A DNA stretch of 33,089 nt, from assembly GCA_947449135.1 (NCBI GenBank), contig CANFQO010000035.1, positions 1 to 33,089 of the forward strand, read 5' to 3'. Position 1 is the first letter of the stretch. Each line of letters begins with the position of its first letter. A program made the translations under genes and the position numbers. Under the pieces are notes generated by a model, which was not told the DNA's origin, ran no database searches, and saw nothing but the letters and a program-made list of their open reading frames with translations. The stretch is from Planctomycetaceae bacterium (GTDB lineage Bacteria; Planctomycetota; Planctomycetia; Pirellulales; UBA1268). Shown one piece after another: positions 18,729 to 33,089 of the stretch.

Positions 18729-21116
18729 ATGAGCGACAACCGCGAATTTGTCGAGGAATTTCTCGTCGAATCGGGCGAGTGCCTCGATCAGCTCGACCGC
18801 GACCTGATCGCGCTGGAGGAACACCCAGACGATCCACAGCGGCTGGCGAGCATTTTTCGCACGGTCCACACGATCAAGGGCAACAGCGGGTTCTTTGGCT
18901 TCTCCAAACTCGGTGCGCTGACGCATAGTGGTGAGCACCTGCTCGGCAAACTCCGGGACGGCAAGATCCGTCTCGACGATCGGGTTTCCGGGTCGCTTTA
19001 TTCCATGATCGATGCCGTGCGGTCGATTCTCCAGGCGATCGAGCAGACCGGTGTCGAGGGGGAGCAGGATTTCCGGGAACTCTCGCAGACCCTCACCGCC
19101 GTGGCTGCCCAAGACGCCGCGGAGGTGGAGTCGGAGTCGGAGCCAGTGGTAGTTCCAGAAGCGTCTGCCGTGACAGATCCGCTTCCGCCAGCGGCCACGC
19201 CACCCGCCCCGCAGCCATCCGCCCCAACTGCCGTCGCCCCCGCGAGCAGTATCGCGCCGGCGGTCGCACCAACGCCCGTTCCCACGCTGCCGATCGCAAC
19301 CGTGCCGAAGGCCTCCATTCCGGCCGTGGAATCGCCGAAGCCTGCCGCCCTGATGCCGTCATCGGAGACGTCCATCCGAGTCGACGTCGGACTGCTCGCC
19401 TCCATCCTCGATCTGGTAGGCGAACTCGTCCTCGCCCGCAACGAACTCCGCACCATCGAATCCACCAACCCCGCCCTTGAAGGCGTGATCCACCGGATCA
19501 ACACCGTCACCAACTCGCTGCAGGAAGCGGCGGTCAAGACACGGATGCAGCCGATCGAGCATGTCTTCAGCAAGTTTCCCCGGACCGTACGGGATCTGGC
19601 CGTCTCCTGCGGCCGGGAAGTTCAGCTCGTCATCGACGGTGCCGATACCGAACTCGACCGCACCCTGATCGAAAGCATTCGCGATCCACTCACCCATCTC
19701 GTGCGAAACGCCGTTGACCACGGCATTGAGCCGCCGGCTGAACGCGAGTCGAAGGGCAAGCCGCGTGCCGGGCGGCTCCTGCTGCGAGCCTTTCACGAGA
19801 GTGGACAGGTGACGATCGAGGTGAAGGACGACGGGGCTGGCATTCCCGTGGAGGCGGTGCGTGCCAAGGCCGTTGCCCGTGGGCTCGTCGATGCCGATAC
19901 CGCCGCCCTGCTCCCCGCCGACCGCGTGCTCCAGTTCATCTTTGAGCCCGGCTTCTCCACGGCCGCCCAGGTGACGAGCGTTTCGGGCCGTGGCGTCGGC
20001 ATGGACGTCGTGAAGACGAATATCGAGGCGATCGGCGGCACCGTCGACATCGCCAGCCAACCGGGCCTTGGCACGACAGTGCGGGTCCGCGTGCCGCTGA
20101 CGCTGGCCATCATCCCGGCGCTTGTCGTGCGGTGCGGATCAGAACGGTTCGCTCTCCCGCAGGCTGCTGTTGGCGAACTGGTCTCCCTGCGGACTGACGG
20201 CGGGCCACGAATTGAAGGCCTCGCCGGATCGGCTGTGATCCGGGTGCGTGGTCGCCTCGTGCCGGTGATCTTTCTGGACGAATTCCTGGGCTTGAGATCC
20301 ACCACTGCGGCCCGGGAGAACGGGACCGTCGTTCTCGTGCGGGTCGATGACCATGAGCTTGGGCTGGTCGTCGATGGCACACAGACCGGCAGCCTTCCCA
20401 CAGACGACGCCTCGCGGCAGCCAGGCACTTCCGTCATGATCACGGAGGCTGCCAGCCTCTCGACGATTGTCGTCAAGCCGATCGGCAGCCTGCTGGCACA
20501 ACTCGGCATCTATTCAGGCGCCACCGTGCTCGGCGATGGCGGCGTGGTGCTGATCCTTGACCTCCGCGGGATCCTGCGGGCCGCCGATCTGCCGGCCATT
20601 GAACGCCGCGTCGAATCAGTCGCGGAACAGACGATGGACGCCACGGACAGCTATCTCGTCTGCCGCACCGTCGCCGGTCGCCGGATCGCCGTGCCCATCG
20701 AACTTGTGGTACGTCTCGAAAAATTTGCCTCAGCGGACCTGCAGACAGCGGCTGGAAAACGCCTGGTGCGTCGGGGCGACGGCTACACTCCCGTGGTCGA
20801 TGCCGACAGCCTGCTCGGCGCGCCGTCAGCCCCCGTAGGGTCGGCCGGAGATGCGGACGACGGCACGATCAATCTGGTCGTGCTCGACGACCGCTGCGGC
20901 GGGATCGGTGTCGCGGTGCGGCAGATTCTCGATGTCGCAGCGGCGGAATCGATGCTGCAATCGACACTGGCTGCCGCTGGCGTGGCAGGCACGCTGGCCG
21001 TCGGCGGCCTCGCCACGGAAGTGCTTGATCTGACTGCACTGGCGGCAGCGCCCAAAACGCTCCCTGCCGTCGGTGGGTCCCACGCCTGGTATCCCTCCGC
21101 CGACTCCCTCTCGTGA
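18729..21116 (+). CDS. cheA: chemotaxis-type histidine kinase CheA, no P2 domain, two CheW-like domains
   Basis: 795 residues. Order of parts: HPt (1-105) with the phospho-accepting His47 in FRTVHTIKGNSGFF; a Pro/Ala-rich linker (about 130-212); dimerisation P3 (216-275); a HATPase_c domain (about 290-457) with N-box LTHLVRNAVDHGIEPP and G-boxes DDGAGIP and SGRGVGMDVV; a CheW-like regulatory domain (460-620); and a second, more diverged CheW-like domain (about 640-775, beginning SYLVCRTVAGRRIAVPI). No P2 response-regulator-binding domain is visible between HPt and P3. It autophosphorylates under receptor control and passes the phosphate to receivers. It is the first gene of the operon cheA-cheW-mcp-cheB-cheR, and its TGA overlaps the earliest start of cheW. 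Confidence 0.95.
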   Translation: MSDNREFVEEFLVESGECLDQLDRDLIALEEHPDDPQRLASIFRTVHTIKGNSGFFGFSKLGALTHSGEHLLGKLRDGKIRLDDRVSGSLYSMIDAVRSILQAIEQTGVEGEQDFRELSQTLTAVAAQDAAEVESESEPVVVPEASAVTDPLPPAATPPAPQPSAPTAVAPASSIAPAVAPTPVPTLPIATVPKASIPAVESPKPAALMPSSETSIRVDVGLLASILDLVGELVLARNELRTIESTNPALEGVIHRINTVTNSLQEAAVKTRMQPIEHVFSKFPRTVRDLAVSCGREVQLVIDGADTELDRTLIESIRDPLTHLVRNAVDHGIEPPAERESKGKPRAGRLLLRAFHESGQVTIEVKDDGAGIPVEAVRAKAVARGLVDADTAALLPADRVLQFIFEPGFSTAAQVTSVSGRGVGMDVVKTNIEAIGGTVDIASQPGLGTTVRVRVPLTLAIIPALVVRCGSERFALPQAAVGELVSLRTDGGPRIEGLAGSAVIRVRGRLVPVIFLDEFLGLRSTTAARENGTVVLVRVDDHELGLVVDGTQTGSLPTDDASRQPGTSVMITEAASLSTIVVKPIGSLLAQLGIYSGATVLGDGGVVLILDLRGILRAADLPAIERRVESVAEQTMDATDSYLVCRTVAGRRIAVPIELVVRLEKFASADLQTAAGKRLVRRGDGYTPVVDADSLLGAPSAPVGSAGDADDGTINLVVLDDRCGGIGVAVRQILDVAAAESMLQSTLAAAGVAGTLAVGGLATEVLDLTALAAAPKTLPAVGGSHAWYPSADSLS

Positions 21117-21127
21117 TCGCCCACGTC

Positions 21128-21619
21128 ATGGCCGACATCCAACGCGATACCCGCCACTGCTGTTTTCTCGTCGGTGGAGACTGCTTCGCCGTCTCGTCGA
21201 CGGGCGTGACGGAGGTGTTGCGTGACGGGAGAATCACCCGCGTGCCGCACGCGGCGGAGGCCGTGATCGGCCTCCTCCATCTCCGGGGCCGGATCGTGCC
21301 GGTGATTGACATGCGGCGACGGCTCGGTGTGATCGGCACGGCGTCGACTGCCAGCCGCACGCACCTCGTGATCCGCCTCCACGACGACTGGTACAGCCTG
21401 CTCGTCGACGAAATGCTCGATGTGATCGAGGTGGCGGAACATCAGATCGAACACCCATCCAAGCCATCCGCCGACACAGCAAACGATGCCGTCACCGGCG
21501 TATTCGCCGATGACGGCAGGCTCGTCTATTTTCTCGATCCGCAGCGGATCGTACAGCCACTAGCCCGACAGCGTGAGCAGTTTCTCCAACGACAGGGAGC
21601 CCCGCATGGCACCGTATGA
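21128..21619 (+). CDS. cheW: CheW coupling protein
   Basis: 163 residues from the ATG at 21128; a GTG at 21113 overlapping the cheA stop would add five residues. A single CheW domain is seen: strand [21 protein letters not shown], then the conserved block [22 protein letters not shown] and the second beta-barrel half [24 protein letters not shown]. It links CheA to the receptor in a signalling array. The C-terminal tail is slightly longer than the compact form. Its last 14 bases overlap the start of the receptor gene, implying coupled translation. Confidence 0.93.
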
Positions 21620-23777
21620 CATTGACTCCACGACCCTTGACGGCACACGGCGCGCGGCCGTTGGAGGCTGGCGTGCGCTGCTCAGCAACAGGCTGCTGCT
21701 GGCGCTGCTGGCCGTCTCGTTGATCCCGCTGGCATTGATGGGGATTGCCACCTATCGATCGGCGGCGAACGCGTTGACTGCCGAGGCGTTCGCAAAGCTG
21801 GAGACCGTCCGCACGATTACCGCCAAGTCTGTCGAACGCTATTTCCTGACGCTGCACAATGAAATTCGGGTGCTTTCCGAGGACCGCATGACGATCGATG
21901 CCTGCAAGCAATTCCAGGCCGCCTTCACCACCGTTCTTGCCGACAACACCGCCGACGACAAGGCGGTAGCCCGAGCCCGTCGGGAACTCGACTCGTATTA
22001 CGTCGGCGAATTTGCCACGGACTACCGGCAGCGATCTGGAAGCGATCCGGTGACCCAGCCATACGCCGAGGCTCTCGACGATACAGCCGCATACCTCCAG
22101 AACCTCTATATCCGCAACAACGAACACCCCATCGGCTCCAAGCTTCTGCTCGACGCGGCTGACGACCAGTCGGCCTACTCGAAGGTGCATGCGACCTTCC
22201 ACCCGCTGTTTCGTAGCATTCTCCAGAAATATGGCCTCGCCGACGTGTTTCTGATCGACGCCGAAACGGGCCGCATCCTGTATACGGTGCACAAGGAGCC
22301 CGACTTCGCCAACTCGCTCCGGACAGGTCCACTCGTGGGCACCAGCCTGTCGGCTGCCTTCCTCGAGGCAGTCGGCAGTGGTCGCCGGGATGCGGTGGCC
22401 TACGGGCCATTCGCCCGCTACTTCCCCTCCTGCATGCAGCCGGCCAGCTTCCTCGCAGTGCCGCTGTTCGACGGCCGACAATTGGTCGGTGTTGTCGCCT
22501 TCCAAATCCCGATCGATCGGGCCAACGAGATCATCGGCGAAACAACAGGCATGGGAACGACCGGTGAAACCTACGCCATCGGTCCCGACCGGATGTTTCG
22601 CAGCAACTCACGGTTTGCCAGTGAGCTGGGTGTCGCCACCACCATCATCGATCCAAAACTCAAGGTGAATACCGCGCCGGTCAAAAACGCCCTCGACGAG
22701 GGCGGGTCGGGAACAGCCCTCAATATCGACTACCGTAACAAGGCCGTGCTCTCCTCGTGGTGTCCGGTGACGATTCACCGGGACGAAGGTTCCGAACGGG
22801 GCACTGTTCGCTGGGCACTGATCTCTGAAATCGACGAGTCTGAGGTGATGGCCCCGATCCATCGGCTACGGAATTTCGCCCTCACCATCTTCGGCCTGAC
22901 GACAGCGGGCGTGCTGCTCGTGTCATCCGGCATCGCCCGCCGTCTCACGCGGGAATCAAACCGTCAGGCGGCCCTCGTCAGCGGCATCGTCGACAACACG
23001 CATGCGTTGGCCAGTTCCTCCGAAGAACTGACGAGCGTGAGCCAGCAGATGAGCGCGGCAGCGGAGGAGACCACGGCACAGGCAAACCTCGTCTCGGCCG
23101 CGGCGGAGCAGGTCAGCAGCAACGCCAGCACGGTGTCGGGATCGATCGAGAATCTCGTGTCGAGCATCCACGAAATCGCCAAGAGCGCTCAGGATGCCGC
23201 CTCGGTTGCGAAGCAGGCGGTCGATCTGGCGGGCACCGCATCGACAACGATGGACGCCCTTGGCCGTTCCAGCGCCGAGATCGGCAAGGTCGTGAAGGTG
23301 ATCACGTCGATCGCCGAGCAGACGAACCTCCTCGCCCTCAACGCCACGATCGAGGCCGCGCGGGCTGGGGAAGCCGGTCGTGGGTTCGCCGTGGTCGCCA
23401 ACGAGGTGAAGGATCTTGCCCGTGAAACCGCCCGTGCCACGGAGGACATCGGTGCCAAGATCGAGGCCATGCAGAGCGATACGCAGCGGGCCGTGTCGGA
23501 CATTGGCGGCATCCGCGACGTCATCGAGTCGATCGACGCGCTGCAGACGCGGATCGCGGCGGCCGTCGAGGAACAGTCGGTGACCACCAGCGAGATCAGC
23601 CGTAACATCGGCGAGGCGACCACGGGCTCGTCCGAAATCGCCGAAAACATCATGCAGGTGGCACAGGCCGCTCAGAGCACTGCCGAGGGAGCCTCCAATA
23701 CACAGGTTTCCTCACAGGAACTCTCCCGGATGGCGCAGGCGTTGCAGCGGCTGGTCGACGAATACCGGCGGTCCTGA
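21606..23777 (+). CDS. methyl-accepting chemotaxis-type receptor, dCache-like sensor, no HAMP domain
   Basis: 723 residues from the ATG at 21606, which has AGGGAG eight bases upstream. Transmembrane helix 1 is at about 29-48 and helix 2 near 430-450 ([21 protein letters not shown]). About 380 residues between them look like a double Cache sensor (including [20 protein letters not shown] and [15 protein letters not shown]). After helix 2 only ~10 residues ([10 protein letters not shown]) precede the signalling coiled coil. The two arms of that coiled coil, ~130 residues before and ~138 after the tip ([19 protein letters not shown]), are nearly equal, so no HAMP domain fits. The C-terminus (DEYRRS) lacks an NWETF-type CheR/CheB tether. 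It should detect a small periplasmic ligand and control CheA. Confidence 0.93.
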
Positions 23778-23781
23778 CGGG

Positions 23782-23821
23782 CTGACGGTCACACTGGCCG
23801 TCATACTGACGGTCACACTGG
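23782..23821 (+). repeat. direct repeat of 16 bases at 24-bp period before cheB
   Basis: CTGACGGTCACACTGG occurs at 23782-23797 and again at 23806-23821, with CCGTCATA between. The second copy runs into the Shine-Dalgarno GGAGG (23821-23825) of the CheB-fusion gene. The gap between mcp and cheB is thus almost wholly repeat, and looks like a short recent duplication or a paired regulatory site. Confidence 0.7.
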
Positions 23822-23833
23822 GAGGTTGCGGAC

Positions 23834-25279
23834 GTGCGTGCGCTGGTCGTCGATGACTCGAAGCCGAGCCGCAGCATCCTTGCGCGGGTGCTCCGCGATC
23901 TCAGGTTTGACTGTACTGAGGCAACCAATGGCCTCGAGGCGATCGCGGCACTCGCGACTCAGGGGCGGCCCGACCTGGTGACCATCAACTGGCACATGCC
24001 GGTGATGGACGGCATCGAACTGCTTCGCAAACTGCGAGCAAACCCGGCCCACCGCACCCTCAAGCTGCTGATGGTCTCCACCGAAAACGACAAGGACCAG
24101 ATCGCCACCGCGATCGCCGCGGGTGCCGATGATTTTCTGGCCAAGCCGTTCACCCCCGAGGCGCTCGCTCGCAAGCTCGTGAGTCTCGGCGTCTGCACAT
24201 CGGCCGAGGCGGCGGCAGCCGGCACACGCGGCCCGATCCGCGTGCTCGTCGTCGATGATTCGGCCACGATCCGCAACGTGCTCTCAGCCACCCTGGGAGC
24301 CGATCCCGATCTGAAGGTCGTTGGTACGGCCATCAACGGACAGGTAGCGCTGACGAGCATCGCCGCCAGTCCGCCCGATATCGTGCTGCTCGACGTCGAA
24401 ATGCCGGTGCTCGACGGGATCTCGACCCTGCGGGCGATTCGCCGTACACACCCAAAACTGCCGGTGCTGATGTTTTCGAGCCTCACCGAGCGAGGATCGC
24501 GGGCTACGCTCGACGCGTTGCTGGCGGGGGCCAACGACTATGCCGCCAAGCCCGCTGCCCAGACGCCCGAAGAGGTAGCTGCCCGCATCCGCGAAGAAGT
24601 GATCGTGAAGATCAAGCAACTGGTGCCCCGGGGTGGGCCGGCCGTGCGGTCGGCGGCCGCGGTCGTGGCCCGTCATCCAGCGACGGCCCGACGAGAACCG
24701 ATCCGGGGCGTCGTTATTGGGGTGTCGACCGGTGGACCGACGGCGCTTGCCGAGGTGCTTCCGGCATTCGCTGCCTCGGTCGGCGTGCCGGTGCTGATCG
24801 TGCAGCACATGCCGGCGTTCTTCACGGCCCAGCTGGCCGAGCGGCTTTCCAAGCTCTGTAACGCCAGCGTGCGAGAGGCTCAGGCCGGTCAGGAGATCCG
24901 TCCAGGCGACATTCTCCTCGCGCCGGGCGGCCGCCATCTCGAAATCGTCGGCGACGCGGGGACGACGCGTGCGCGGCTCACCGACGATCCGCCGGAAAAC
25001 TCCTGCCGACCAGCGGCGGATGTGCTGTTTCGATCCGCGGCACGGCTCTGGGGCGCCGGTACGCTCGGCGTGGTGCTCACCGGGATGGGCCGCGACGGCC
25101 TGCAGGGCTCGCGGATGATCGTCGAGGCCGGCGGAACGGTGATCGCACAGGATGAATTCACGAGCGTCGTCTGGGGGATGCCGGGGGAGATCGCCCGCGC
25201 CGGCCTGGCCGATGCCGTCCTGCCGCTGCAACAGATCGGCGTCGAGGTGGCCCTGCGACTGAAGCGGCGTGGCGGCTAA
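23834..25279 (+). CDS. cheB: REC-REC-CheB: receptor methylesterase with an added pseudo-receiver domain
   Basis: 481 residues, starting with GTG at 23834 and GGAGG eight bases upstream. Receiver 1 (1-120) keeps Asp7-Asp8 and Lys104 but has Asn52 where the phospho-acceptor Asp is expected (VTINWHMPVMDG; codon AAC at 23987-23989). Receiver 2 (about 134-255) is standard: Asp141-Asp142, phospho-acceptor Asp187 (LLDVEMPVLDG) and Lys239. The methylesterase domain (288-478) has the catalytic set Ser298 (GVSTGGP), His325 (QHMP) and Asp421 (GMGRDG). CheB removes methyl groups from receptor glutamates when its receiver is phosphorylated by CheA. The extra receiver cannot be phosphorylated in the normal way and may be a docking or allosteric module. 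Length is about 130 residues above the usual CheB. Confidence 0.93.
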   Translation: MRALVVDDSKPSRSILARVLRDLRFDCTEATNGLEAIAALATQGRPDLVTINWHMPVMDGIELLRKLRANPAHRTLKLLMVSTENDKDQIATAIAAGADDFLAKPFTPEALARKLVSLGVCTSAEAAAAGTRGPIRVLVVDDSATIRNVLSATLGADPDLKVVGTAINGQVALTSIAASPPDIVLLDVEMPVLDGISTLRAIRRTHPKLPVLMFSSLTERGSRATLDALLAGANDYAAKPAAQTPEEVAARIREEVIVKIKQLVPRGGPAVRSAAAVVARHPATARREPIRGVVIGVSTGGPTALAEVLPAFAASVGVPVLIVQHMPAFFTAQLAERLSKLCNASVREAQAGQEIRPGDILLAPGGRHLEIVGDAGTTRARLTDDPPENSCRPAADVLFRSAARLWGAGTLGVVLTGMGRDGLQGSRMIVEAGGTVIAQDEFTSVVWGMPGEIARAGLADAVLPLQQIGVEVALRLKRRGG

Positions 25280-25297
25280 GCCGCGAGGAACACACGC

Positions 25298-26125
25298 ATG
25301 AAGGTCGGCACGCCACAGTTCACCTTTCTCTGCGAGCTGCTTCGCAAGAAAACCGGTGTCGTCATCGACATCTCGAAGGAATACCTCGTTGTGGCACGGC
25401 TGATGCCGATCGTCCGGCAGCGGGCAATCCCCAGCCTCGACACGCTCATCGATCGGATTCGCAAGGGAGTCGACCCGACGCTCGAACGTGACGTTCTCAG
25501 CGCGATGATGACCCACGAGACGTCGTTCTTCCGCGATAAGAGCCCGTTTGAAACGCTCCGTCAAAAGCTGCTTCCCGAACTGATTGAGCGGCGAGCCGTC
25601 CAGCGGCAGCTCACGATCTGGTCGGCCGCCTGCTCCACCGGCCAGGAGCCCTACAGCATTGCCATCCTGCTAAACGAGCACTTCCGCGACCTGCTCGGAT
25701 CGTGGCAGGTGCGGATTCTCGCCACCGACTTCTCCGAGACCGTGCTGACTCAGGCCCGCGAGGGGGTCTTCAACAATCTCGAGACAGCTCGGGGCATGCC
25801 TCCCGAGTTGCTCCAGAGGTATTTTCGGCCGCTGCAGGGAAAGTGGAGCATCTCGCAGGACTGCCGAAGGCTGGTGGAATTCCGCTCGCTTAATCTCAAC
25901 GCCACCTGGCCGATGATGCCCCCCTGCGACATCATTTTTCTTCGCAACGTGATGATCTATTTCGACGTCGCCACCCGTGCGGCACTGATCAAGAAGATGC
26001 GAACCGTCCTGCGGCCCGACGGAGCACTCTTCCTGGGTGGTGCGGAGTCACTGATCGGCACCGACACGGGCTACGACCGACTCGCCGGAGTGGGATGCAG
26101 CTACTACCGCCCGAAGCCGCACTAA
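25298..26125 (+). CDS. cheR: CheR-type chemoreceptor glutamate methyltransferase
   Basis: 275 residues, the family size, starting at the ATG at 25298 after GAGGA. The N-terminal helical domain (with LMPIVRQRAI) is followed by the conserved block THETSFFRDKSPFETL and the S-adenosylmethionine-binding Rossmann domain: WSAACSTGQEPYSIA, ILATDFSETVLTQAREG and CDIIFLRNVMIYFD. It methylates glutamates in the receptor signalling domain using S-adenosylmethionine, opposing CheB. No TPR or other C-terminal extension is present. It is the last gene of the operon and is convergent with the phosphatase gene. Confidence 0.94.
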   Translation: MKVGTPQFTFLCELLRKKTGVVIDISKEYLVVARLMPIVRQRAIPSLDTLIDRIRKGVDPTLERDVLSAMMTHETSFFRDKSPFETLRQKLLPELIERRAVQRQLTIWSAACSTGQEPYSIAILLNEHFRDLLGSWQVRILATDFSETVLTQAREGVFNNLETARGMPPELLQRYFRPLQGKWSISQDCRRLVEFRSLNLNATWPMMPPCDIIFLRNVMIYFDVATRAALIKKMRTVLRPDGALFLGGAESLIGTDTGYDRLAGVGCSYYRPKPH

Positions 26126-26177
26126 AGCGAATGACGCCGACAACCACGGCCTTCTTTCACTGTCGCGGGAGACGGGA

Positions 26178-26201
26178 GTCGGCGGAAGCTCGAGGAGCGT
26201 T
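26178..26201 (-). repeat. dispersed 24-bp repeat, copy B (matches 3699-3722 inverted)
   Basis: Read on the - strand these 24 bases are identical to 3699-3722. This copy also lies in a convergent gap, downstream of cheR and downstream of the phosphatase gene on the other strand. It is followed on the + strand by TAGGGTTTTT and then the hairpin at 26211-26242. Confidence 0.75.
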
Positions 26202-26210
26202 AGGGTTTTT

Positions 26211-26242
26211 CGACCTGATAGGCAATGCACTGCCGCAGGTCG
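26211..26242 (+). other. imperfect hairpin in the cheR/phosphatase convergent gap
   Basis: CGACCTG at 26211-26217 pairs with CAGGTCG at 26236-26242, and inside it GGCA (26221-26224) pairs with TGCC (26231-26234) around six bases. No T-run follows on either strand, so it is not a standard intrinsic terminator. It could still cap transcripts arriving from both sides. The rest of the 210-base gap shows only the 24-bp repeat and no gene. Confidence 0.5.
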
Positions 26243-26335
26243 TGGAAGGAGAAAAAACCTCCGCGACGAGACTTCTGCCGATTCCCGGCGGCTTGGGCCG
26301 CTAGACGTATGACGTTTGCGCTGTCGATCGCAGCG

Positions 26336-27778
26336 TTACGGCCGCCACTCAACGCCGAGGATCGAGACGTCATCGAGCGGGCCGATGGGCTGACACCAGT
26401 CCTCGACCCGTTGCAGCAACGCCTTCACGCTCTCATCGAGCGACTGCGACCGAGTGGCCGCCAGCACGCCGGCCAGCGCCTCGTCGCCGAGCTGCTGGCG
26501 ATCCTTGTCCATCGCCTCCGGCACGCCGTCTGAATAGAGGTAGATCCGATCGCCGGGAGACAATTGCAGCGAGTGCTGCTCGTAGTCCACGTCCGGCACG
26601 AAGGCGATCGGAAAGCCCTCCACAGGATGAAACTCTGGCGTTCCGCCGGCCGGCACCCGCACGAGCGCCGGATGGCCGCCCGACACGTAATCGAGCCTGC
26701 CAGTCGGCATGTGCAGCACGCCGTAGAGGATCGTGAAATAGAGGCCCGAGAATTCGTCCGCCTGAAAGAGCCGATTGAGCTGCGTGGCCACTTCCGCAGG
26801 CCGCGCGACCGCGATCCGGCCATCGGCCCCCTGCCGCACGAGCAGCGACTGGTCGGACACTTTCGGCGTCAGGAACCGGCCCACGGTTACCGCCATCAGC
26901 GACGAGGGCACTCCATGGCCGCTGACGTCGACGACGAACAGCCCCACATGCTCTTCGTCGAGCATAAAAATATTGAGGAAGTCGCCGGCGAGGCTGTGGC
27001 ACGGCACATACCTCCAGGCCACTTGCGTGGCTGGAATCGTCACGTCTTGAGCGGGCAGGAGCGACTGCTGCACCTTGGCCGCGGCCTCCAGATCGCGAAC
27101 CATCTGCGCATTGTTGCGGGAGATCTGCTCGTTGAGATCGGTCAGTTCGCTGTTGGTCCGCTGCAGGTTGTCGCGGGCCACGGAGAGATCCTGGTTGGCG
27201 ACGACCAGTTCCTGGTTCTTGGCAACGGCGTTTTCGAAGGTCGAGACGAGCAGGTTGAGCACCTGCTGACGGCCGGCTTTGACGCGAAACTGCTGCCCCG
27301 CGAGCGTCACCTCCAGCATGGCCGCCTCGGCCCCGGCGCTGTCTTCTTCGAGCGGCGAAGCGAGGAGCGACTGAATGCGGCCGAGCAGGAAGTCTGCCTC
27401 GTAGGGCTTGGTGACGTAATTGTCGGCGCCCGCATCGAGACCGCGGATGATGTCGATCGGGTCGGCCAGCGTCGACAGAAGAATGAACGGTAAGGTCTTG
27501 AGCGCGGGATCGGTCTTGACCGCCTTGCAGAACTCATACCCCGTCATCACCGGCATCTCGATGTCAGAGACGATGATGTCGGGCCGCCGCTCACGGACAA
27601 GCGCCAGCGCCTCAGCACCGGTCTCACCCCAGCGAACCGTATGCCCGGCCTCGGTGAGCCGACGCTGGAGCATCTTCGCCTGGATGCGGCTGTCCTCGGC
27701 GATCACCACGTCGACACCGCCACCGGCAGCGGCACTGCCGGCTGATGCTGTCGGCTGAGCCGAGGCGTCTGAGTTCAT
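26336..27778 (-). CDS. REC-SpoIIE/PP2C-type serine phosphatase (RsbU-like)
   Basis: 480 residues from the ATG at 27776-27778; a longer start at 27841 would overlap the preceding gene's end. An N-terminal receiver (about residues 20-145) has the acidic pair (AEDSR), phospho-acceptor Asp72 in SDIEMPVMTGYE and the conserved Lys in TKPYEADF. A coiled-coil linker (about 180-240) leads to a SpoIIE-type PP2C domain with LAGDFLNIF, DVSGHGVPSSL, VSGGHPALV, YSDGVPEA and DDVSILGVEW. The position after GDF reads LN rather than YD, a change I believe is common in this REC-linked subgroup. Such enzymes dephosphorylate STAS-domain antagonists; the candidate substrate is encoded 28 bases upstream on the same strand. 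The receiver could take phosphate from the convergent operon's CheA. Confidence 0.9.
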   Translation of the reverse strand: MNSDASAQPTASAGSAAAGGGVDVVIAEDSRIQAKMLQRRLTEAGHTVRWGETGAEALALVRERRPDIIVSDIEMPVMTGYEFCKAVKTDPALKTLPFILLSTLADPIDIIRGLDAGADNYVTKPYEADFLLGRIQSLLASPLEEDSAGAEAAMLEVTLAGQQFRVKAGRQQVLNLLVSTFENAVAKNQELVVANQDLSVARDNLQRTNSELTDLNEQISRNNAQMVRDLEAAAKVQQSLLPAQDVTIPATQVAWRYVPCHSLAGDFLNIFMLDEEHVGLFVVDVSGHGVPSSLMAVTVGRFLTPKVSDQSLLVRQGADGRIAVARPAEVATQLNRLFQADEFSGLYFTILYGVLHMPTGRLDYVSGGHPALVRVPAGGTPEFHPVEGFPIAFVPDVDYEQHSLQLSPGDRIYLYSDGVPEAMDKDRQQLGDEALAGVLAATRSQSLDESVKALLQRVEDWCQPIGPLDDVSILGVEWRP

Positions 27779-27806
27779 CGCGGTCTTTCCCGAGTGCGTG
27801 CGATGC

Positions 27807-28166
27807 TCAGGCTTCAAACGCTGCCAGGCCGGCAGGCGCATCGGGGAAGATCTTGAAGAGCTTGTCGAGGTTCGTGAGCTTGAAGACCTGGAAGATCTCG
27901 GGCCGGATGCCGCACATCTTCAGCCGCCCTTGGCCTTGGCTGATTTTGCGATGCAGCTGTCCAAGCAGGCCGAGCATGGCGCTCGACATGAACTCGACGT
28001 TGGCGAAATCGAGGAGCATGTCCGGCCCGGCTGCGTTGCCGATCAGCCGGTTGATCTCGGTCTTGATCTCATCGAGCACCGTGTCGTCGAGGATCTTCTT
28101 GTCCTTGAACAGCACGATGTGGATGTTGTCCTTCTTGCCGGTCTGGATACGACGGTACTGGTCCAT
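27807..28166 (-). CDS. STAS-domain anti-sigma factor antagonist-like protein
   Basis: 119 residues. The protein has the STAS pattern: an N-terminal strand (IHIVLFKDKKILDD), helix, strand LLDFANVEFMSSAMLG with candidate phospho-serines 61/62, then helices and a second strand (GRLKMCGIRPEIFQVF). In the partner-switch model the unphosphorylated protein binds and sequesters a serine kinase/anti-sigma factor, and a PP2C phosphatase reactivates it. The phosphatase gene follows directly, 28 bases away. No anti-sigma kinase (RsbW/BldN-type) is in the window, so the third partner must be elsewhere. Confidence 0.88.
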   Translation of the reverse strand: MDQYRRIQTGKKDNIHIVLFKDKKILDDTVLDEIKTEINRLIGNAAGPDMLLDFANVEFMSSAMLGLLGQLHRKISQGQGRLKMCGIRPEIFQVFKLTNLDKLFKIFPDAPAGLAAFEA

Positions 28167-29655: not shown

Positions 29656-32600
29656 CTACTTCCGCAGCACACCGATCCGCAGCGGCGGCAGGATGCCCGT
29701 CGAACCGGGCAGCGTCGACGACGTGCCGCCCGACGGGTCGGTGTTCTTCTTCACACCCCCTGTCTTGCCAAACTGTCCCTGCACGCTGTAGATCTCCGTC
29801 TCGCTGATCGCCGCGGTCCAGACGTCGGCCCGCTGGCCGCTTGCGCCACCGAAGGCCGCGAAGGACGCTGTCGGGATCTTGCTGATACCGCGGTAGGTCT
29901 CGACCTTCGAACCGCCGTTCACGCCCGCCGACACGAGGACACCCGCAGCGGCCCCGTTGACACCCGGTAGTGCCGCCACCGAGACGCCACCTGAGTATCC
30001 CTTGCCGATCGGCTTGACGGTGTTGACCACCACAGGGGGTGCCGACACGGCGTTGTAGCTCTTCACGGTGGCGGGGATCCCCGGACCACTGCCGACGATC
30101 ACCTCCGTGATCCCATCCGGGTCCGGCGACGTCCGCGTGCTGCCCGAGAAGGTGCCGATGTCGGCGGTAGCCACCGTCACGCCGCCGCGGAATGCCGGAC
30201 CGAAGGGCTGCATCTGCCGGATCGGCGTGCTGGAGATGCCACTGCCCGGCATCACGTCGAACACGCGGACGAGACTCGTCCCTCGCTGCTGGCCAGCGAC
30301 CAGCTGCGTTGTGCCGACGCCCGTCACGGCCCCGACCGCCACCTCGACACCGCCGGTATATCCCGATCCGAACGGGGACATGCGGTACTGAGGCAGTTCA
30401 ACGCCATTCTGCGTGAAGACCCGGACTTCACCGGGACGGCCCGGCCCCGGCGCGGTGATGATCTCGTCGATCCCGTCGCCGGTCATGTCGTAGCCGTAGA
30501 CATGCACACCACCGCGGAATCCAGGCTCGTAGGCGAAGAACTGCGTCAACGGCAGGCCCGTCACGGGATTGATGACCTGCACCAGCGGCGTGCTCGTGCA
30601 GCCAAGATCGGTGCCGAGAATCAACGCCGGCGAGAAGTTCGGCGTGTCGGTGTCGGTGGCCGAGTCAGTCGTACCGTCGGGAGCGTTCACGGTGGCGGTA
30701 TTGACCAGCGTCGTCGTAGCCGTGGAGAGCGTCTGAGCGATGACCGTGTAGGTGACCGTGCCACCCACGGCGAGGTCGATCGTCTCGTTGATCGAGCCGG
30801 TGCCGATCGTCTGCGCTGAGGAGTTGGAGCCAGTGAAGACCGCCGTCCAGGTGGAGGCGGCCACGTCGATCACCGTGGGATCGAGGACGTCGATCACTTT
30901 CGCTGACTGTGCAAAACTCACTCCTGAGTTCGTGACCACAATCGTGTAGGTCACCGACTGCCCAGGCTTGTAGATCGCCGTGCCGTCGGTCTTCGTGATC
31001 GTCATCGCCGTCACGGGCAGCGGCGTGCTGATCACCGTCGACGTGTTGTCATCAGGGTTCGGGTCTGGGAAACCAGCGGGGGCCGTCACCGTCGCGGTGT
31101 TCGTCAGCGGCGAGAGGGCGTTGGCCGCCACAGCGGCCGTGATCGTGAATGCCGCCGTGCCGCCGACCGGCAGGTCCGTCAGCACCGCATTGATATCGCC
31201 CGAACCGCTCGCCGGACCCGCGGCTCCTCCGGCATACGACACCGTCCACGTCACCCCGGAAAGCTCCGCCGGCAGCGTGTCGGCCACAGTGGTGTTCGTG
31301 ACGTTGCTTGGACCGAGGTTCGTGACGACGAGCGTATACGTGAGCGGACCGCCGGGCGTGAATGTCGCCGGACCGGCCTTCACGATCGTGAGGTCGGCGC
31401 CCGGTGGCGTAACGACACCGACGCTGTCCGCGGCCGCAAGCGGCAGGCGGGTCGTCGCCCCCGTGCCCGAGGCCGACGCGGAATTGCTGATCACGGTCGA
31501 ATCGGGCGTGAGGGCGTTGACCGTGACATCAAACGAGATCGTCACCGACCCGCCGCCAGCAATATTGCCGAGAAAGCCCGTCACACCGCCTCCCTGACTG
31601 CCTGTCAGGGAGCCCTGGCTGGACGAGAGGTTGCCTGCGTAGGTCGTGTTGGCCGGAATCTGGTCGTTGAAGAACACGTCCGCGGCGATGTCGGTCGGCA
31701 GCGTTGCCCCACTATTGTTTGTGACGACGATCGTGTAGCGGAGCGTGTCGCCATCCTGCACGAACCCGCCGTTCACATCGACGACCGTCTTCGTGAGGGC
31801 CAGTTTTGCGGCCAGCAAAACCGTGTCGGTATCGGTTGATGTGTTGTTCGCCGGCGTCGGATCGGTAGTACCGACCGGGGCCGTGACCGTGGCCGTGTTC
31901 ACGAGCGACGTCGTGGCGGTCGGGCTCGTCTCGGCGATGACCGTGTAGACGGCCGTACCACCCACGGCCAGGTCGATCACCTCGTTGATCGAACCGGTGC
32001 CTGCGGGATCGCCGACCGAGCCCGTGCCGGTGAACACAGCACTCCAGGCCGCCGCGGTGATCGTGGCCGGGAAGGCGTCGGCCACCCTTGCCCCGCGGAC
32101 GAAGCTCGGGCCGGCGTTGGTGACCGTGATCGTGTAGGTGACCGGCAGACCCGGCGTGTAGGTCGCGCTCGAATCGGTCTTCACGATCTGCAGGTCGGCC
32201 ACCGGGGCCACGCTGCTCCTGCCGGTCGAGGTGTTGTTGTCGGGGTTGGGGTCGGGGTCGCCGTCGGTCGGCTGGACCGTGGCGATGTTCGTCAGCACGC
32301 CGTTGAGCGTTGCGTCGGCCGTGGCTCGCACCGTGTAGGTAGCCCGACCGCCCTTCGGCACGGTGACGTTCGTATTCACGTTGCCCGAGCCCGATGCCGT
32401 GCCGCTCGCGCCGCCGGTAAACACAGCCGTCCAAGTGGCACCAGTCAGCCCGGCGGGCAGAACGTCTTCCACGAGGGCGTTCGTCGACGTACTCGGACCT
32501 GCGTTGGTCACCACGAGCGTGTAGGTGAGCGGTTGGCCCGGCGTGTAGGTGGCAGGGGCTGTCTTCACGATCGCGAGATCGGCACCGCCCGCCATCGAAA

Positions 32601-33089
32601 TCCCGACCGTGTCCGTAGCCTGAAGCGGCACGCCCGTGACCGAGGCGGTGGCCGTGACGAGGGCCGTGTTGATGATGGCCGAGCCGAGCGGCGTGCCGGC
32701 ATTCACCGTCACGTCGAAGGTCACGGTCGTCGACTGACCGGCAGCGAGCGTGCCCCCCACTGGCACGCCGGTGCCGGCTCCGGCTCCGGCGCCTAACTGG
32801 AAGTACACCGTGTTGAAGAAGCTGCTGTACTCAGCCTGATCGCGATCCACGGCGTCGGTCTTCGCGCCAGCATTGGCCCCGGCCGTGATCCGCAGCGTGC
32901 CGCGCTTGTAGGTGGTGTTGGCCGGGATCACGTCGCTGAGGATCACGTTCGTCGCCGCCTCGGCCGGCAGCGGCGTCGCCAGATTCGAGACGACGATCGT
33001 GTACCGCAGCGTGTCGCCACTCACGAGCACGCCGCCATTGAGATCCCGCACGGTCTTCACGACGGTGAGGTTCGCCGGATGGGTGACAG
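29656..33089 (-). CDS. large surface protein with duplicated DUF11 block and FG-GAP-like repeats, partial
   Basis: The frame is open at the window edge, so the true start and signal peptide lie beyond 33089; a GTG at 33058-33060 is only an internal codon (residue 1 of the counting used here). About 1,144 residues are visible. Six DUF11-like beta-sandwich domains occur: A1 (to ~155), B1 (158-284), C1 (287-413), A2 (417-550), B2 (553-680) and C2 (683-806). Then comes an FG-GAP/integrin-like beta-propeller region (about 812-1090) with DMTGDGIDEIITAPGPG and RGGVTVATADIGT, and a short Gly/Ser/Thr-rich tail. Such proteins are exported and form cell-surface or adhesin structures. The tail shows no LPXTG or PEP-CTERM signature. 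Stop TAG is at 29656-29658. Confidence 0.88.
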   Translation of the reverse strand, partial: VTHPANLTVVKTVRDLNGGVLVSGDTLRYTIVVSNLATPLPAEAATNVILSDVIPANTTYKRGTLRITAGANAGAKTDAVDRDQAEYSSFFNTVYFQLGAGAGAGTGVPVGGTLAAGQSTTVTFDVTVNAGTPLGSAIINTALVTATASVTGVPLQATDTVGISMAGGADLAIVKTAPATYTPGQPLTYTLVVTNAGPSTSTNALVEDVLPAGLTGATWTAVFTGGASGTASGSGNVNTNVTVPKGGRATYTVRATADATLNGVLTNIATVQPTDGDPDPNPDNNTSTGRSSVAPVADLQIVKTDSSATYTPGLPVTYTITVTNAGPSFVRGARVADAFPATITAAAWSAVFTGTGSVGDPAGTGSINEVIDLAVGGTAVYTVIAETSPTATTSLVNTATVTAPVGTTDPTPANNTSTDTDTVLLAAKLALTKTVVDVNGGFVQDGDTLRYTIVVTNNSGATLPTDIAADVFFNDQIPANTTYAGNLSSSQGSLTGSQGGGVTGFLGNIAGGGSVTISFDVTVNALTPDSTVISNSASASGTGATTRLPLAAADSVGVVTPPGADLTIVKAGPATFTPGGPLTYTLVVTNLGPSNVTNTTVADTLPAELSGVTWTVSYAGGAAGPASGSGDINAVLTDLPVGGTAAFTITAAVAANALSPLTNTATVTAPAGFPDPNPDDNTSTVISTPLPVTAMTITKTDGTAIYKPGQSVTYTIVVTNSGVSFAQSAKVIDVLDPTVIDVAASTWTAVFTGSNSSAQTIGTGSINETIDLAVGGTVTYTVIAQTLSTATTTLVNTATVNAPDGTTDSATDTDTPNFSPALILGTDLGCTSTPLVQVINPVTGLPLTQFFAYEPGFRGGVHVYGYDMTGDGIDEIITAPGPGRPGEVRVFTQNGVELPQYRMSPFGSGYTGGVEVAVGAVTGVGTTQLVAGQQRGTSLVRVFDVMPGSGISSTPIRQMQPFGPAFRGGVTVATADIGTFSGSTRTSPDPDGITEVIVGSGPGIPATVKSYNAVSAPPVVVNTVKPIGKGYSGGVSVAALPGVNGAAAGVLVSAGVNGGSKVETYRGISKIPTASFAAFGGASGQRADVWTAAISETEIYSVQGQFGKTGGVKKNTDPSGGTSSTLPGSTGILPPLRIGVLRK

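Follow-up and report, generated by a model that had tools for sequence, protein, structure and literature searches.

A chemotaxis-type operon in the window, by which we mean the whole 33,089-nucleotide stretch of DNA that was analysed, has probably been turned into a non-motility signalling pathway. Judging from sequence comparisons, it would run from CheA to a phosphatase consisting of a receiver (REC) and a PP2C domain and from there to a STAS protein. A pathway of this kind, from a chemosensory array to a partner switch, had been proposed in a preliminary description of the locus, and comparative genomics argues for it. The linkage of phosphatase and operon, the absence of FliG, the loss of the phospho-acceptor Asp from the former CheY and the relatedness of the phosphatase receiver to receivers of che operons were, like the genes and their active-site residues, observed directly, and REC-PP2C genes lie near che operons elsewhere in the order.

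The Locus

The window corresponds to contig C35 of a 3.69-Mb planctomycete bin (G000), 96% complete. The family sample consists of 60 genomes from 12 genera, the window's own included; 38 genomes from other families of the same order were used for comparison. The che genes, in the order cheA-cheW-mcp-cheB-cheR, occupy positions 18729-26125, all on the + strand, and are convergent with the PP2C and STAS genes on the - strand, the stop codons of cheR and the phosphatase gene being 210 bp apart. Coordinates and Pfam domains placed every gene where the preliminary description had put it:

18729..21116, + strand, CheA (Pfam; His47 and the ATP-site motifs conserved; second CheW-like stretch read from the sequence)
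21113..21619, + strand, CheW (Pfam, 102 bits)
21606..23777, + strand, methyl-accepting receptor (MCP) with a predicted periplasmic dCACHE-type sensor fold (MCPsignal; AlphaFold model; dCACHE matches with Z of about 17-19)
23834..25279, + strand, CheB, consisting of REC1 (CheY-derived, Asn52), REC2 (Asp187) and methylesterase (Pfam, alignment, tree)
23834..24187, + strand, REC1, the fused former CheY with Asp changed to Asn and with acid pair, Ser and Lys retained (alignment, tree)
25298..26125, + strand, CheR methyltransferase without a TPR domain (Pfam)
26336..27778, - strand, phosphatase with REC (Asp72), hairpin, helix of about 70 residues and SpoIIE/PP2C domain (Pfam; residues; model; fold matches)
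27807..28166, - strand, STAS protein resembling anti-sigma-factor antagonists, Ser62 at the position of SpoIIAA Ser58 (Pfam; alignment to SpoIIAA; Ser62 in 42/42)

The chemosensory set is complete and its active sites are intact. CheA has an Hpt domain with His47, which is kept in all 27 family sequences having that column, followed by dimerisation, HATPase and CheW-like domains and a second CheW-like stretch at the C-terminus; a P2 domain was not found by Pfam. The periplasmic part of the receptor has no Pfam match, and the AlphaFold model predicts that it is a dCACHE sensor (against 2p7j: Z 18.9, rmsd 2.6 over 241 aligned residues).

The STAS gene lies upstream of the PP2C gene on the same strand, and from this arrangement the two are read as a putative STAS-PP2C operon converging on the che operon. 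Neither a sigma-70-like promoter nor a terminator was found at the che/phosphatase junction, and no convincing conserved promoter motif was seen upstream of the STAS gene. Further along, at 29656-33060 of the window, is a gene for a large protein with repeated surface-adhesin-like stretches, adjoining a BBP7-like gene; the same two genes are also found near STAS-PP2C in some other genera.

The Former CheY

The preliminary description stated that the operon has no cheY. This is correct in so far as there is no separate cheY gene. A CheY-like receiver is nevertheless present, as an extra N-terminal domain (REC1) of CheB with Asn52 at the acceptor position. Orthologous operons in five other families (f2, f10, f12, f16 and f20) have a separate cheY between mcp and cheB, coding for a protein of about 120 residues with its Asp within LVDWNMP or LLDWNMP, and the homology of REC1 with these CheY proteins has a support of 99/97 in the tree. 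The better explanation for the "missing" gene would thus appear, from the alignments and the tree, to be that CheY is present but disabled, fused to the front of CheB. With the phospho-acceptor lost, the usual way of carrying the output is closed to REC1, and the operon does not provide a phosphorylatable CheY of the flagellar type.

The acceptor position is Asn in 44 of 45 family sequences, the exception (G010) having Asp; the acid pair and the Lys are invariant and the Ser nearly so. Since a single base change would restore the Asp, this constancy may be taken to mean that the Asn receiver on CheB is itself the real output or a gate, which works independently of phosphorylation, binds CheA or CheB and sets the methylation level, the PP2C phosphatase being a parallel branch. 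We regard this as unlikely: no separate effector is attached to REC1, one genome has the Asp, and a plain remnant which only helps CheB to fold would look the same.

Flagella and Other che Clusters

FliG was found in none of the 60 family genomes; it is present in 37 of the 38 genomes from other families. A flagellar role for the operon was rejected on this ground. Divergent FlhA/FHIPEP remains in most of the family genomes; it may be a remnant or another export gene and was not taken as evidence of flagella. In G000 it is found on contig C20 (L164:4675-8763) together with a FliA-like sigma factor and an FlgM-like protein, possibly as a repurposed remnant of an export/sigma system.

The preliminary description had regarded a cheY accompanied by flagellar genes elsewhere in the genome as evidence against its reading. 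The whole-genome search gave a divided answer, in that a cheY was found and fliG was not. The reading is not refuted, because a cheY in a genome without fliG gives no pointer to a flagellar motor. This true, phosphorylatable CheY is encoded on contig C64 next to CheD, a CheC-like gene and a receiver-cyclase. It belongs to a second che cluster, comprising CheB, receptor, CheR, CheA, CheC-like protein, CheY, CheD and receiver-cyclase, which extends over C59 and C64; we infer that these contigs join because CheA is broken between them and the corresponding clusters are unbroken in G001-G003. The receiver-adenylate/guanylate cyclase at the end of this cluster (L168:1143-2441) has a receiver about 50% identical to that of the window phosphatase. 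G000 also carries a Wsp-like operon on C34 (L069:3321-11502) with receptor, CheW, CheR-TPR, CheW, CheA-REC and CheB.

The Phosphatase and Its Linkage to the Operon

The reading frame of the phosphatase is open to 27841 (26336-27841), and the receiver Asp is residue 93 of this longest ORF and Asp72 when counted from the Met at 27778, which is the favoured start. The phospho-acceptor Asp72, described earlier as intact, is indeed so, and Asp is found in all 46 family sequences with that column. The output domain is a PP2C of the SpoIIE type (Pfam 136 bits) with all metal-binding aspartates, and the metal motifs are invariant across the 45 to 47 family sequences. In the model the receiver is followed by a hairpin, a helix of about 70 residues and the PP2C domain, with which the protein ends. 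The PP2C part matches the folds of RsbU of Rv1364c (Z 26.6), SiaA (Z 25.3) and SpoIIE (Z 23.6). RssB matches both domains with a Z of 25.7, but the rmsd of 16 means that the placement of the domains differs.

The phosphatase receiver clusters at 100/98 with the receivers of cyclases from che clusters and with a receiver of Pirellula sp. Prado161, whose gene comes next after cheB, in the same direction, in a che operon. In sequence, then, it groups with a clade of che-operon receivers. It should be noted that the Prado161 gene, coding for a receiver and linker (L217:3847-4488), is cut by the contig end.

Linkage was scored from the positions of CheB, CheR and PP2C obtained by protein-to-DNA alignment, and the tally is a reading of the resulting tables. 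The phosphatase is adjacent to the operon (cheR to phosphatase at most about 500 bp) in 41 of the 60 family genomes and linked to it with an insert of 2-4 kb in another three (G022, G035, G039), these genomes together spanning 10 of the 12 genera. Both are present but apart in six (G007, G015, G021, G034, G042, G055), PP2C-STAS is found with the operon absent in three (G017, G038, G058), both are absent in four (G013, G025, G036, G051), and three (G004, G012, G047) are undecidable due to contig ends. Apparent gaps of about 1 kb in G007, G015, G021, G034 and G042 were rejected as cross-matches of the receiver domain and represent no real linkage. The genomes with PP2C-STAS and without this operon form two distinct branches in the phosphatase tree, one with G017, in which the operon's CheA was also looked for and was absent, the other with G038 and G058.

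The genes flanking the two sets turn over almost completely between genera: the ORF upstream of cheA is common to 3 of 143 cross-genus pairs and the ORF upstream of STAS to 35 of 565. Linkage throughout the family against such a turnover rules out that phosphatase and operon are neighbours by chance, and the conservation of the neighbourhood, on which the preliminary description had made its proposal depend, proved to be strong for the pair and not for its flanks. The 38 genomes from other families yielded no full-length ortholog of the phosphatase and a single partial PP2C match (G096); the phosphatase and the fused CheB have the same phyletic limits. The relatives that the phosphatase sequence brought up come from metagenome bins with the names Planctomycetaceae, Planctomycetia or Pirellulales, according to the record names many from lakes and some of marine origin.

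Against the proposed pathway it can be said that che and STAS-PP2C are convergent and not one operon, and that other CheA proteins and histidine kinases in the genome could phosphorylate the receiver. The STAS-PP2C pair might then serve the pathway of another kinase and be merely a stable convergent neighbour, with the che output lying elsewhere, in the true CheY or in the receiver-cyclase of the second cluster. Since two lineages retain the pair in the absence of the operon and six genomes have the two unlinked, the phosphatase must be of some value without adjacency, and other CheA genes and a CheY do exist. We nevertheless consider this explanation improbable, as the linkage is far above the turnover of the flanks, the phyletic limits coincide with those of the fused CheB, the receiver falls in the clade of che-operon receivers and the second cluster has a CheA of its own.

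Other Links between che Operons and Phosphatases in the Order

Several flagellate families have another type of REC-PP2C, distinct in its receiver, within their che operons or next to them. It is co-directional with the che genes in f13, f15, f3 and f19, and divergent at the head of the operon in f14, f17 and f15 (genomes G072, G125 and G257). In G107, G272, G223 and G169 it immediately follows cheB of a Wsp-like operon, in G103 it follows cheR, and in G077 and G101 it immediately precedes the receptor gene; in G000 it is on C11, away from the Wsp-like operon. From gene order, a link between chemosensory operons and REC-PP2C appears to be recurrent in the order.

In G072 (f14) a STAS gene follows about 97 bp after cheR. 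No STAS gene was found after cheR in the operon fragment of its congener G088, and the arrangement in f14 is therefore that of one genome. G072 also has an Hpt-STAS fusion directly upstream of cheA (L235:4379-5098), with a partial homolog in G125; in this fusion phosphorelay and STAS parts are physically joined.

The STAS Protein and Its Possible Partners

In the alignment to SpoIIAA, Ser62 of the STAS protein falls on Ser58; this Ser62 is kept in 42 of 42 family sequences. In partner-switching modules a cognate kinase/anti-sigma factor gene is usually, although not universally, found in the same locus. Pfam scanning of the locus genes revealed no cognate HATPase_c_2 or RsbW-like kinase. The genome of G000 has one clear RsbW-like kinase, encoded on C13 beside another STAS gene, which may be the kinase of the STAS protein; most genomes of the order have a kinase of this type. 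A second, diverged STAS gene (36-43% identical) stands in tandem upstream of the STAS gene in several genomes of genus g8 and in G028, as seen in stretches L109, L112-L115, L107, L108 and L102.

A version of the main explanation with a named target can be formulated from HsbA of Pseudomonas aeruginosa, which in its unphosphorylated form binds FlgM and frees FliA (PMC6482189): the unphosphorylated STAS protein would bind the FlgM-like protein and release the FliA-like sigma factor for transcription of non-flagellar genes. This candidate is speculative and has little chance of being right, for although the genes for FlhA, FliA-like and FlgM-like proteins are together on C20 in a genome without FliG, that locus is unlinked to che and phosphatase, the FlgM match is weak (29 bits against a cut-off of 25) and the STAS gene has no convincing conserved promoter motif upstream.

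The Proposed Pathway

The pathway from CheA through REC-PP2C to STAS would work as follows. The dCACHE receptor, CheW and CheA would make up an array in which CheB and CheR perform adaptation. CheA would phosphorylate the receiver of the convergent REC-PP2C instead of a CheY, and phosphorylation would act on the PP2C domain via the long helical linker. The phosphatase would then take the phosphate off Ser62 of the STAS protein, which in its dephosphorylated form would bind or release a partner, be it a kinase/anti-sigma factor, the FlgM-like protein or an enzyme, and this exchange would change gene expression or an enzyme activity. The phosphotransfer, the direction of PP2C control and STAS as the substrate are deduced from the established roles of the protein families.

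A more specific history may be put forward tentatively, at somewhat less than even chances: within the fliG-less family CheY became joined to CheB and persisted as a conserved, non-phosphorylatable Asn receiver with a positive role, and the phosphate of CheA was redirected to the phosphatase feeding the partner switch.

Relation to Known Systems

It is not settled what chemosensory arrays control in bacteria that lack flagella. Related families keep an apparently older arrangement, with a separate cheY having its Asp and with FliG, as against the changed one, in which CheY is fused and has Asn, REC-PP2C and STAS are present and FliG is absent. As both arrangements are preserved, one can follow gene by gene how a chemotaxis output was replaced, and test this with a small number of purified proteins. 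The pseudo-receiver with Asn conserved at its phosphorylation site is a natural experiment.

The general idea of a PP2C output from chemosensory clusters is already known. A survey of CheR-TPR (ACF-type) clusters lists both REC-PP2C and REC-nucleotide cyclase response regulators (PMC3447774), and the window operon resembles these clusters in having a CheA-based array and, probably, a receiver protein carrying an output domain. ACF-type clusters have a multidomain response regulator as their output; here a REC-PP2C is conserved beside the operon, though on the opposite strand. The survey deals with CheR-TPR, however, whereas CheR has no TPR domain here, the effector is convergent rather than within the operon, and relatives from the order have an orthologous operon whose cheY is a separate gene. 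In the openly accessible literature we found no account of a lineage lacking FliG in which a disabled, CheB-fused CheY occurs along with a conserved neighbouring REC-PP2C/STAS pair.

In the HptB-HsbR-HsbA system of P. aeruginosa and the CrsR-CrsA system of Shewanella (PMC6482189) an Hpt protein passes phosphate to a receiver-PP2C whose target is a STAS antagonist, as is proposed here. HsbR differs in receiving its phosphate from HptB, which is fed by hybrid kinases and not by a chemoreceptor array, and the C-terminal kinase/anti-sigma domain of HsbR and CrsR is absent from the window phosphatase.

The Wsp system is similar in that a chemoreceptor array drives a multidomain response regulator, and several genomes of the order have a REC-PP2C adjoining a Wsp-like operon. 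In contrast to the Wsp system, CheA of the window operon is not a hybrid, CheR is plain, a single CheW gene is present and there is no GGDEF regulator; by Pfam the operon contains none of the Wsp hallmarks (CheA-REC hybrid, CheR-TPR, two CheW, WspR).

With RsbU, SpoIIE and SiaA the window phosphatase shares the PP2C fold, a helical linker before the PP2C domain and a STAS partner; it differs from them in having a receiver domain as its input and in being encoded beside a chemosensory operon.
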